A stretch of DNA of 64,000 nucleotides from Phycisphaerae bacterium (lineage in GTDB: Bacteria; Planctomycetota; Phycisphaerae; JAJVII01). Shown in pieces: positions 15,992 through 33,781 of this stretch (the stretch's first letter is position 1; each line of letters opens with the position of its first letter). Position numbers and translations under genes: made by a program. The DNA lies in assembly GCA_022072085.1 (NCBI GenBank), contig JAJVII010000020.1, positions 124,001 to 188,000 on the forward strand. The letters run 5' to 3'. The notes beneath the pieces were generated by a model. The model was given only the letters and a program-made list of their open reading frames with translations. It had not been told where the DNA came from and did no database searches.

Positions 15992-16223
15992 CGGACGCGC
16001 TCCCTCACGGTCGCGGCTGAACGTTTATTGAGACCTGCAAGAGAAATCTTCATTCACCACAGAGGACACCGAGATCACAGAGGAGGTCAGAAGCGTCAAG
16101 AAATGCCTGAAATCAAGAATTTCTTGACACTCCCGACTCTGTGCTCTCTGTGTTCTCTGTGGTGAAGATTGCTTCTACAGGATTCAGCAAATGTTTAGCC
16201 GCGACCGTAAGGGAGCGCGTCCG
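15992..16223. repeat. 232-bp long inverted-repeat (hairpin) element
   Basis: The outer arms 15992-16021 and 16194-16223 match almost perfectly as inverted copies of CGGACGCGCTCCCT-ACGGT and onward. Inside them, 16054-16080 (TTCACCACAGAGGACACC...) pairs with 16141-16166 (...TTCTCTGTGGTGAA). At the centre, GTCAAGAAAT (16095-16104) pairs with ATTTCTTGAC (16119-16128). All three pairs share a centre near 16108-16111, so the element could fold as one nearly continuous hairpin. It fills most of the 333-base gap between SGNH hydrolase and the oxidoreductase gene. No coding sequence or transposase is present. Direct repeats of GCGTCCGGGAAA follow it (about 16217-16252). Confidence 0.8.
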
Positions 16224-28296: not shown

Positions 28297-28420
28297 GGGC
28301 TGTACGGGGCCTCTAATGCGGGTTCTCGTGAACACCGCCGAGGCTGGGCGTTGACCAACTCCTGCCTGGCGGTTAGGGACCGGCCGGGGCGCCTGCGGCG
28401 TCGAACGCACTGACGGACTA

Positions 28421-28470
28421 AGGGGCTCTAACAGACCTACGCGGACCCGCGTAGGTCTGTTAGAGCCCCT
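28421..28470. repeat. Perfect 50-bp palindrome, copy 1
   Basis: Two 24-base arms are exact inverted copies around the dinucleotide AC. The left arm begins AGGGGCTCTAACAGACC and ends CGCGG. It lies upstream of the PEP-CTERM gene at 28686. A second diverged copy is at 29991-30052. No T-run follows. Confidence 0.95.
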
Positions 28471-28513
28471 AAAGGCTGCCGGCAGCCGGACGGCGAACTG
28501 GGGCAAATCCGCC

Positions 28514-28542
28514 TTGACTCATCACTACCAAAGGGCTATTAA
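28514..28542 (+). promoter_or_regulatory. Promoter of the first PEP-CTERM gene
   Basis: TTGACT (28514-28519), a 17-base spacer and TATTAA (28537-28542) in a locally AT-rich stretch. The start codon at 28686 would follow a ~135-base leader. An overlapping -10 alternative is TAATAC at 28540. With the palindrome and the hcp hairpin, this accounts for the 458-base gap 28228-28685. Confidence 0.6.
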
Positions 28543-28685
28543 TACTAACGCGCTGATGTGCCAGATCTTGCAGGCCAGTTGATACTAAGTCGTAATTGAG
28601 ACGGTCGGAGCTACTGCTGCCAGGGGGCAATGCGGGGGGGGTGGTGCTGTCGGCTCATTCTCTTGGGGGGAACTGGAGGAGAGAG

Positions 28686-29915
28686 ATGGGAAGGTTCCTG
28701 CTCGCCCTCTCGGCCTTGCTGACTCTGCTGGTCACCTCAAGTCTATTGGCCGCACCGGCTTACCAGATGCGGCTTGACGGAAGCGGGGTGCCGCTGGTCT
28801 TCTGGGACAGTCGCGGATTCAGCGGGGGCTTCGACGACGCGAACAAGATCGGCGTCATTGCCAAGGATGACAACCCCGGCGAGCACGTCGTCGTGGTGAT
28901 GGACAAGGACGGGTCGGCCAGCGGCTTCGACCAGTATGTGTTCGATCCGGCGCTGGCCTCGCCCAACAACGCGGTCACCAACGGCGCCCTGACGGTCTTC
29001 CAGACCTACGCCAACCAGGAACTCTATGCCGGGTCGGTGGTTGGCGGCGTGAAGGCCGCCAACGGGCTGGTGGTCGCAGGCCACGCCCGCGGCAATTCGA
29101 TCAACACGTTCTTCGGGCTGTCAGGCAACGGGGGCACGTTCGGTCTGGCGGAGTACCAGCTTCGCGACACGTCCGACAACTTTAACGTCGACGGCGGGGT
29201 GGCGGCGCTGCTGGCGGCGCAGAACGTCGGCATCGATACCGGCAACTTCAAGAAAGCCCTGGCCCTGGTCAGCGACGATGGCAGCACGTTCCACATGCTG
29301 TTGGCCAGTTCCGGCGGGGCCAGTGTCACGCTCATCCGCAAGATGGACATCGGCGGATACTCCGTCGCCCCGACAGCGACGACCGCCGGCACACGGTCCG
29401 TAACGGCCGGCGGCACGTTGCGTGACAGCGGGGACACGACCAACAACTTCATGGCCGACCTGGTGCCGGTCATCAACGACAGCATCCAGGACATTGCAAT
29501 CAACCCTGGAGACGGGAACCTCTACTTCCTCAGCGACGACCGCACCAACGGACGGGTGTTTCTGTCGGCCGTCAGCTTCAGCTTCGGCAATCTGGGCGAT
29601 AACTCGATCACGTCAATCGTGGACCTGGACCCGGATTCGGCCAACACTTACCTGGAACTGACCTACACGGCCGCGTCCAACGCCAACGACCTGACCGGCG
29701 AGAACCTGGTGGCCGCCCGCGGGCTGGCCTTCAGCCCCGACGGCTCGGTGCTTTACGTGACCAACGGCGACAGCGACAACAACTCCAAGCGGGTGTTCAT
29801 CTTCGACGCCCCGGTTGCAGTCCCCGAACCGGCGACGCTTGGCCTCTTGGCGACCGGCGGGATATTGCTCCTTGTTGCGGGGCGGCGGCGAGTCTGCCGA
29901 CGACGATCCCGCTGA
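28686..29915 (+). CDS. PEP-CTERM exported protein, propeller-like, paralog 1
   Basis: A 409-residue secreted protein of unknown function. It has a signal peptide (FLLALSALLTLLVTSSLLAAP), a beta-rich body, and the sorting tail VPEPATLGLLATGG-hydrophobic-GRRR. Body phrases such as DIAINPGDGNLYFLSDD and ARGLAFSPDGSVLYVTNGDSD resemble blades of beta-propellers. The next gene shares these phrases in the same order, so the two are likely paralogs. GGAGGAGAGAG precedes ATG 28686. The gene is bracketed by two copies of a strong palindrome. PEP-CTERM proteins are usually handled by exosortase and associated with extracellular matrix; the system itself is not in this window. Confidence 0.85.
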   Translation: MGRFLLALSALLTLLVTSSLLAAPAYQMRLDGSGVPLVFWDSRGFSGGFDDANKIGVIAKDDNPGEHVVVVMDKDGSASGFDQYVFDPALASPNNAVTNGALTVFQTYANQELYAGSVVGGVKAANGLVVAGHARGNSINTFFGLSGNGGTFGLAEYQLRDTSDNFNVDGGVAALLAAQNVGIDTGNFKKALALVSDDGSTFHMLLASSGGASVTLIRKMDIGGYSVAPTATTAGTRSVTAGGTLRDSGDTTNNFMADLVPVINDSIQDIAINPGDGNLYFLSDDRTNGRVFLSAVSFSFGNLGDNSITSIVDLDPDSANTYLELTYTAASNANDLTGENLVAARGLAFSPDGSVLYVTNGDSDNNSKRVFIFDAPVAVPEPATLGLLATGGILLLVAGRRRVCRRRSR

Positions 29916-29990
29916 GAATTCATCTCGATTGCCACGCGGGATCGCGTTTGGCGGGCCCGTCCGAGAAACTGCCCACCGGAATCTGCCGCT

Positions 29991-30052
29991 CCTCTAAGGG
30001 GCTCTAACAGAACCTGCGCGATCCCGCGTAGGTTCTGTTAGAGCCCCAGAGG
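29991..30052. repeat. Diverged palindrome, copy 2
   Basis: GGGGCTCTAACAGAACCT (29998-30015) pairs perfectly with 30030-30047. The central region pairs with one G-T mismatch (CGCG/CGCG), and an outer CCTCT/AGAGG adds five pairs. It shares most of its arm with the perfect palindrome at 28421-28470. The changes keep complementarity within each copy (GACCT against GAACCT on both arms). Confidence 0.9.
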
Positions 30053-31947: not shown

Positions 31948-33666
31948 ATGCTGAACCATTCGTTGATTCTCGTCGCGGCTGCGATGCTGCCGGCCTTCCT
32001 CGCTGTCCCTGCCGCCCGGGCCGACGACAATGCCCTTATCCGCATGGACGCCGGACAACTCTACGCGGGCCTGGAGGCCGGCCGCGTCCTGCCCGTGCCT
32101 GACGCAGACAAGCCGACCGGCCTGACGCTCGACACGCGCAACTGGGGCAGGGGCCTCAAACAGGGCCAGGTGGCCACCGACGTGATTGACCTGCGCGGCG
32201 ATTCGGCGCTGGCGATGCCCGCGAAAGTGACCGGTCTGACCGTCGAGGCCTCCGGCGACGAGCCTGCCGGAAGTTCGCTGAAGGTCTTCGTCCGTCACGG
32301 GCCGACCTTCTTCCAGGCCTCCGGCTGGAGCGACTGGCGGCAGGTGCAGGGACCGGCTGCCAAGCCCGACGCGTCTCCCATCGACATGGGCGCCGATCCG
32401 TACCTCCAGGTCCGCATCGAACTGCACAGCGACGGCAAGGCCAAGCCGACGCTCAAGTCCCTGGCGATCGGGTTCAAGCTGTCGCCCGAGGCCGCCCCGG
32501 CTGACGAGATGAAGGTCACACAGGCCGACGTGCAGAAGATCGCGCGCTCGACCATCGACTTCGCCTGCGAGCGGATGGACCAGCCGGACCTGGCCTGGTT
32601 CCGCAAGGCCGCGAAGCTGGACGACGTGGTGGCCGGCACGAAGAGCGAGTTCGACAAGCTGGTCGCCCTCTGCCAGTGGGTGGGCGCGCGGCACAACGTC
32701 CGCGACGACGCCTCCAAGAAGCGGCTGGGTTGGGGACGGTACTACCCCTGGAACATCCGCCAGGTGTTCGACCCGGCGCTGGAGAACGGCTCGATCTGCG
32801 GCCACTGCGGCAGCTACGCCGAGGTGCTGATCACCGCGGCGACCGCGATGGGCTGGCAGGCTCGGCACATCGCCATCCAGGGCTACCGCGCCAACAGCCA
32901 CGAGGTCGTCGAGATATGGGTCAACGAGCTGGGCCGATGGATATACTTCGACCCGTCGCTGGCCACCTACTATATCGACCCGGCCACGAAGCAGCCGCTG
33001 GACATCGTGCAGATGCACGACCGCTATGTGAACTTCTTCTGCGAGCCGGGCAAGACCATCGCCGACTACCCGCGGGCCGGCGACACTGCGACCGACCTGG
33101 GCTACCAGCGTCGGCTGAAGCTGAACTACGACGACCTGCACGCCACGCCCGTCACGACCGATTACACCTACGGTGAGCACAAGCCTTTCCCCTGGCAGAG
33201 CGCCCAGGGCATCATGACCTGCGGCTGGATGCAGTTGACGCCGCGGAACAACTTCCACAGCCAGCCGCAGCCGGCCTTCACGTCGTTTGGCGGTTCGGTC
33301 AACGGTGGCAACGGCTTCCCCGTCTGGACCGACGCCAAGGCCCCGCTGTCCAGCCGGGCGGTGCGCTGGTTCTCCCGCCGACGCGACTGGTACTGGACGC
33401 TGAACCAGGCGTCGCTTCGGCTGACCCGCGCGGCCCCGCGCTCGATCGACGTCGAGCTGGGCAACAGCCAGCCGCACTTCGACCATTACGAGTTGAAGAT
33501 CAACGGCCCGCTCGGCTCGCCGACGCCTCCGGGCGTGCCCGTCGTCGTCCGCGGCGCGAGCTACGCCTGGAGCCTCCTGCCCGGCGTCAACACGCTGGAG
33601 GTCACCTGCGTCGACGCCTTCGGCCAGAAGGGCCTGACGTCCAAGGTGACCGTCGAGGCCAAGTGA
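31948..33666 (+). CDS. Secreted transglutaminase-like protein
   Basis: A 572-residue protein with a signal peptide ending near PAARA. Residues ~30-190 are a beta-sandwich that may bind carbohydrate (VFVRHGPTFFQASGWSDWRQVQGP). Residues ~240-350 are a transglutaminase/papain-like core with the triad Cys287 (CGHCGSYAEV), His318 (NSHEVVEIWV) and Asp335 (YFDPS). Many bacterial members act as proteases or amidases rather than cross-linkers. The last ~100 residues form another beta domain. GGAG is at a normal distance before ATG 31948. Function outside the cytoplasm, perhaps on peptides or glycans, is inferred. Confidence 0.87.
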   Translation: MLNHSLILVAAAMLPAFLAVPAARADDNALIRMDAGQLYAGLEAGRVLPVPDADKPTGLTLDTRNWGRGLKQGQVATDVIDLRGDSALAMPAKVTGLTVEASGDEPAGSSLKVFVRHGPTFFQASGWSDWRQVQGPAAKPDASPIDMGADPYLQVRIELHSDGKAKPTLKSLAIGFKLSPEAAPADEMKVTQADVQKIARSTIDFACERMDQPDLAWFRKAAKLDDVVAGTKSEFDKLVALCQWVGARHNVRDDASKKRLGWGRYYPWNIRQVFDPALENGSICGHCGSYAEVLITAATAMGWQARHIAIQGYRANSHEVVEIWVNELGRWIYFDPSLATYYIDPATKQPLDIVQMHDRYVNFFCEPGKTIADYPRAGDTATDLGYQRRLKLNYDDLHATPVTTDYTYGEHKPFPWQSAQGIMTCGWMQLTPRNNFHSQPQPAFTSFGGSVNGGNGFPVWTDAKAPLSSRAVRWFSRRRDWYWTLNQASLRLTRAAPRSIDVELGNSQPHFDHYELKINGPLGSPTPPGVPVVVRGASYAWSLLPGVNTLEVTCVDAFGQKGLTSKVTVEAK

Positions 33667-33669
33667 GCC

Positions 33670-33747
33670 GAATGCGGAATGCGGAATGTGGAATCGCGGC
33701 CGGCGCCTTCTCTTGATTCCGCATTCCGCACTCCTCATTCCGCACTC
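33670..33747. repeat. Inverted repeat built on the GAATGCGGAATG word
   Basis: The left arm (33670-33695) repeats GAATGCG/GAATGTG units. The right arm (33715-33747) is the same word inverted (GATTCCGCATTCCGCACTC). It fills the gap between the transglutaminase-like and GNAT genes. Confidence 0.8.
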
Positions 33748-33781
33748 TCCCACCCGGTTGCTTCCACCGCCCGTCCTACGG

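Follow-up and report, generated by a model that had tools for sequence, protein, structure and literature searches.

Palindromes on either side of a PEP-CTERM gene in a Phycisphaerae bacterium are very likely relics of non-coding MITEs whose ends are of the IS5 type

Two palindromes that bracket a PEP-CTERM protein gene in the window (the whole 64-kb stretch of DNA analyzed here, G000:C2:124001-188000) are very likely relics of a family of non-coding, IS5-type MITEs whose members are probably mobilized in trans, are reduced to solo palindromes by loss of their internal hairpins, and in this instance have come to lie beside the gene by coincidence. The family adds a mobile element to those of the Phycisphaerae, no description of it having been found in the literature searched, and it accounts for perfect palindromes near genes that might otherwise be read as terminators, binding sites, or RNAs with a structural role. 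Signs by which such relics may be distinguished are the existence of a long form, duplication of a TWA target, and uncoupled changes in the two arms.

The upstream palindrome (copy 1, or C2a) consists of 24-nt arms at 28421-28444 and 28447-28470, which are 100% complementary around a 2-nt centre, and 216 bp separate its end from the start codon of the gene (ATG at 28686), as an initial sequence-only reading had described. While the pairing is real over the 50 bp given in that reading, the outermost A/T pair belongs to a duplication of the target TAA (28419-28421 on the left, matching 28470-28472 on the right), and the element proper is a 48-bp palindrome at 28422-28469 in which both terminal inverted repeats are joined, with CGCGGACCCGCG as the centre. 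By chance, about 7e-9 perfect palindromes with 24-bp arms are expected in 64 kb. The downstream palindrome (copy 2, or C2b), a solo of 50 bp at 29998-30047 as read from the sequence and from its fit to a 278-bp form, has 23-nt arms (29998-30020 and 30025-30047) that are 96% complementary; its 4-nt centre, CGCGATCCCGCG, is the remainder of the right inner arm of this long form. Copy 2 lies 82 bp beyond the gene's stop at 29915, or the 76 bp previously reported if the flanking pairs CTCT/AGAG are counted. In the sequence and the flank table TAA stands to its left (29995-29997) and AGA to its right, without duplication, such that the duplication has presumably decayed or lost its TA.

A search of the full genome with the arm GGGGCTCTAACAGAACCT(ACGCG), the check that the sequence-only reading had put forward, found further copies: the arm occurs at 10 places, all of them intergenic as judged by a simple ORF/GC3 picker rather than a gene caller. 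Eight of the 10 are complete elements, namely six solos of approximately 50 bp (at C1, C11, C14, C18, and twice at C2, as C2a and C2b) and, at C12 and C16, two long forms of 278 bp that share these ends and enclose large hairpins, and which are one element in opposite orientations apart from point changes; the other two, at C42 and C44, are one-ended remnants. The terminal inverted repeats of the family are GGGGCTCTAACAGAACCTACGCGGG, and its elements, 48-278 bp in size with inverted repeats of approximately 26 bp, are far too short for a transposase gene. They are bounded by TWA duplications and terminate symmetrically in GGGG/CCCC, and the interior of the long form (274-278 bp) comprises two large hairpins and a small one. 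Several copies lie less than 100 bp downstream of a stop codon, and at C11 (L106) and C42 (L111) the element directly abuts the TAA stop codon of a gene; insertion at TTA/TAA puts the element at the stop codon, where the duplication would restore a TAA stop.

Evidence for insertion comes from the flanks. Of the 15 two-ended elements in three genomes, 8 have identical 3-bp flanks, all TAA or TTA, and those of the remainder mostly differ by one base or have one end decayed. With a per-site probability of 1/64, 8 identical pairs in 15 would arise by chance at 2e-11; raising that probability to 0.1 still gives only 3e-5. Since both members of each matched pair read alike (TTA/TTA or TAA/TAA), the flanks represent a direct duplication and not an extension of the palindrome.

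When 100 relatives were scanned with the 18-mer arm, matches were confined to the genome under study, and G001, the one genome of the same family among them, had none. Outside this set, the Phycisphaerales MAG fen_1344 (G101/G176) contains 31 matches to TWA plus arm, nearly all of them immediately after TTA/TAA, and carries approximately 30 ends of the family, mostly in long forms. Many fen_1344 contigs terminate within the element, as is expected because the repeat disrupts assembly. Two partial copies that overlap were joined to give the fen_1344 long form of about 274 bp, which can be aligned with the 278-bp form over its full length, its ends conserved and its interior diverged; the interiors fold more strongly than shuffled sequences (z of -4 to -8). 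A scan of the class (397 genomes) identified a variant arm, GGGGCTCTAACAAA, in G136, G192, G385, G322, G123, and G263, where genomes were counted only if their matches read out as TWA plus terminus, single one-mismatch matches being about as frequent as in a reversed-pattern control. G136 has three copies of a 165-bp element, each with an exact TWA duplication, in which hairpin A is kept and hairpin B and the small hairpin are absent. A wider scan of contigs gave arm matches in fen_1344, bin71, and an unrelated Glaciecola sequence without a palindrome; viral sequences searched with the arm gave only unrelated matches, and plasmid and phage searches gave one weak Variovorax match lacking terminal inverted repeats and another, also weak, that falls within a gene of Halobaculum.

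The connection to IS5 rests on the ends. In G192, the variant arm forms the end of a transposase gene (L120), which reads TTA|GGGGCTCTAACAAAACCT and agrees with the arm in the window at 17 of 18 bases. The gene matches PF01609 and, at 124 bits against a cut-off of 110, NF033580, 'IS5 family transposase'; the opposite end of this copy has been lost, and a search of the class with its protein found relatives in 32 genomes. Complete ISs of approximately 900 bp encoding IS5-family transposases are present in other Phycisphaerae (L154, L155, L159, L160, L161), with terminal inverted repeats GGCACTCTAACAAAACC, GAGCGCCTAACAAAACC, GAGCCTCTAACAGAACC and similar, flanked by TTA/TTA or TAA/TAA duplications. 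These autonomous ISs agree with the MITE family both in the type of end and in duplicating TWA. In the genome under study, two IS5-family IS ends, TAA|GAGCGCCTAACAGAATGAG, in which 11 of 15 bases match the terminal inverted repeat of the MITE, stand at contig ends. The contigs concerned (G000:C16:115472 and G000:C51:41372; L150 and L152) stop inside the same IS, of which the genome probably has at least two assembly-breaking copies. An autonomous IS with exactly the MITE's terminal inverted repeat was found neither in this genome nor in fen_1344, and the PF01609 and PF13358 transposases of these genomes and of bin71 yielded no matching terminal inverted repeat. A published element of the IS1031 subgroup of IS5, and the rule given for that subgroup of a TNA target with an exclusive 3-bp duplication (PMC12016507), are in agreement with this: the MITE family shows the same 3-bp TNA/TWA duplication, the subgroup being compared by this rule. 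An assignment of the element to the IS5-family ISs proper was considered and rejected: it is non-coding, and only its candidate partners encode a DDE transposase. The family is therefore classed as a MITE with IS5-type ends and not as an IS. The earlier suggestion that the palindromes are protein-binding sites is compatible with this classification in the sense that their ends would be recognized by a transposase.

The solos were compared, ungapped and in both orientations, with the prefix plus suffix of the long form. Mismatches numbered 0 for C1 and for C169 of fen_1344, 1 for C2b and C14, 2 for C11, and 3 for C18, and the perfect fit of C1 includes its two asymmetric arm positions; the centres being short, the comparison is informative mainly for C1, C2b, and C11. 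Microhomology at the join is 0-5 bp (5 bp in both C2b and C11), and in most solos part of one of the long form's inner arms survives, whichever way round. Copy 1 does not fit this ungapped deletion model (12 mismatches) because both of its arms lack one A, and its derivation from the long form is suggested by analogy with the other solos. The centres of the six solos in this genome all differ, which favours separate deletions over the spread of a single solo.

Long palindromes are unstable in bacteria. The proposed course of events is that an IS5-family transposase supplied in trans, for which the ISs above are candidate partners, moved the elements, which would have inserted at TWA with a 3-bp duplication; that the inserted long form, because it is a large imperfect palindrome, would be unstable in replication and may have lost its interior through slippage at short CG-rich repeats; and that the product would be a stable palindrome of 48-51 bp, two of which happened to flank one PEP-CTERM gene. 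A different order of events, in which the 50-bp solo is itself the unit upon which the transposase acts and the long forms are solos that later acquired hairpins by insertion, is clearly unlikely. Both ends required by a DDE transposase are present in the solo, and exact TWA duplications flank C1, C2a, and C11; yet the six solos of this genome have six different centres, most of them retain with short microhomology the leftover of one inner arm, fen_1344 has mostly long forms, and a paired-end complex would probably lack room on two ends joined at 2-4 bp.

Less probable still is a role for the palindromes as hairpins that regulate or terminate transcription, or as a family of structured RNAs, maintained by selection for pairing. 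Strong intergenic hairpins, several of them closely following stop codons, would be in keeping with such a role, as would the one coupled indel in copy 1, and the sequence-only reading had stated that each arm change was matched on the opposite arm and that pairing was being kept. The A-deletion (GACCT against GAACCT) is indeed present on both arms, but copy 2 also has an A-to-G substitution (CCTGCG against CCTACG) without a counterpart on the opposite arm, and across the genome the arms of other solos have mostly changed independently of each other (C2b, C11, C14, C18), leaving the claim of preserved pairing unsupported. Furthermore, a coupled change within a single perfect palindrome is a known product of template-switch correction (PMC8794818, PMC7202029), and that of copy 1 need not mean selection. 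The copies have no consistent position with respect to genes, two of them abutting a stop codon. Rfam gave no match, such that the structured-RNA proposal is without support. An intrinsic terminator, a GC-rich stem followed by a T-run, was considered for both copies and found at neither, in agreement with the earlier observation that T-runs are absent. Uncoupled changes in copies elsewhere had been named in advance as pointing to a chance palindrome or a simple terminator; while the covariation argument does fall with them, neither reading follows, because the arm recurs in the genome and neither palindrome is overlapped by a terminator-like site.

The gene between the solos (28686-29915, + strand; Pfam PF07589) has seven further matches in its own genome, one of which is the downstream neighbour gene, a paralogue of 27% identity, while the other six are away from every copy of the palindrome. 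The bracketed gene is thus an ordinary resident paralogue and not cargo. A single 1.6-kb unit bounded by the two palindromes, with the gene as cargo, is extremely unlikely. That a single gene is bracketed, and that two of ten copies would fall within 1.6 kb by chance with a probability of only about 2.6%, is unusual, but not enough to sustain such a unit: TAA and AGA on its outer sides are unmatched, copy 1 has its own inner duplication, and the presumed cargo has its matches away from the copies and a paralogue next door. A composite unit would have its duplication outside both copies and none inside; TAA/AGA is found outside, and TAA/TAA at copy 1. The earlier suggestion of a small mobile unit was correct as to the mobile kind, but each palindrome is a whole collapsed element rather than one end of a unit around the gene, which they surround coincidentally, neither carrying nor controlling it. 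A repeat of the REP/RAYT type, an extragenic palindrome moved by a tyrosine transposase, has next to no likelihood here: the palindromes are short and intergenic and REPs have been reported in Planctomycetes (PMC3733652), but the unpaired GTAG or CGTC tag is absent at the foot, and the 3-bp target duplications and symmetric terminal inverted repeats are those common to DDE-type IS5 elements.

The MITE family with IS5-type ends shares characteristics with several known systems. Firstly, like the MITEs with IS5-family ends of Porphyromonas gingivalis (BrickBuilt, MITE293/700) and Neisseria (ATR), it is non-coding and multi-copy, is almost identical at its ends to an IS5-family IS, and contains no transposase remnant; it differs in its strict TWA duplication, its interior of two large hairpins, its repeated collapse to approximately 50 bp, and its Phycisphaerae host (PMC4596501). 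Secondly, it resembles IS1031-type IS5 ISs in the class of its end sequences and in its 3-bp TNA/TWA duplication (PMC12016507), although it has no transposase gene and no IS with an exactly matching terminal inverted repeat was found in the host genomes. REPs and GTAG- and CGTC-tagged palindromes are likewise short, intergenic, and present in several copies (PMC3733652), but the family described here lacks a tag at one foot, has target duplications, and bears the ends of a DDE-type IS. Similarly, the enterobacterial RU-1, RU-2, and RU-3 (103-168 bp; PMC2759123) are small, mobile, intergenic, MITE-like elements; judged by their description, they differ in host, and from the TWA duplication, two internal hairpin modules, and solos seen here.

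In the graded series of elements with two large hairpins, one, or none, nature has recorded how long palindromes may break down in the chromosomes of bacteria. The architecture of stem, hairpin B, small hairpin, and hairpin A persists in two Phycisphaerae families despite diverged sequence. It is conceivable, albeit unlikely, that the internal hairpins are not passive filler and might aid transposition or copying, for example as a folded single strand, in which case hairpin loss would amount to retirement of the copy.

Short elements with the same type of end and TWA flanks but a different interior, containing GAGGAATCGCTTCGCG- or GATTCCTCGG-like stretches, are present in G367/bin71 (L122), G385 (L121), and G322 (L133), and are other MITE families with IS5-type ends. 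Within the window, an imperfect palindrome at 16086-16137 has 25-nt arms that are 80% complementary around a 2-nt centre, and a hairpin at 33662-33748 is composed of GAATGCG heptamer repeats. The 18-mer GAATGCGGAATGCGGAAT, allowing up to two mismatches, has 62 matches at many places in the genome, some of them in facing pairs, and the GAATGCG-repeat hairpins form a second repeat-hairpin family unrelated to the MITE palindromes.
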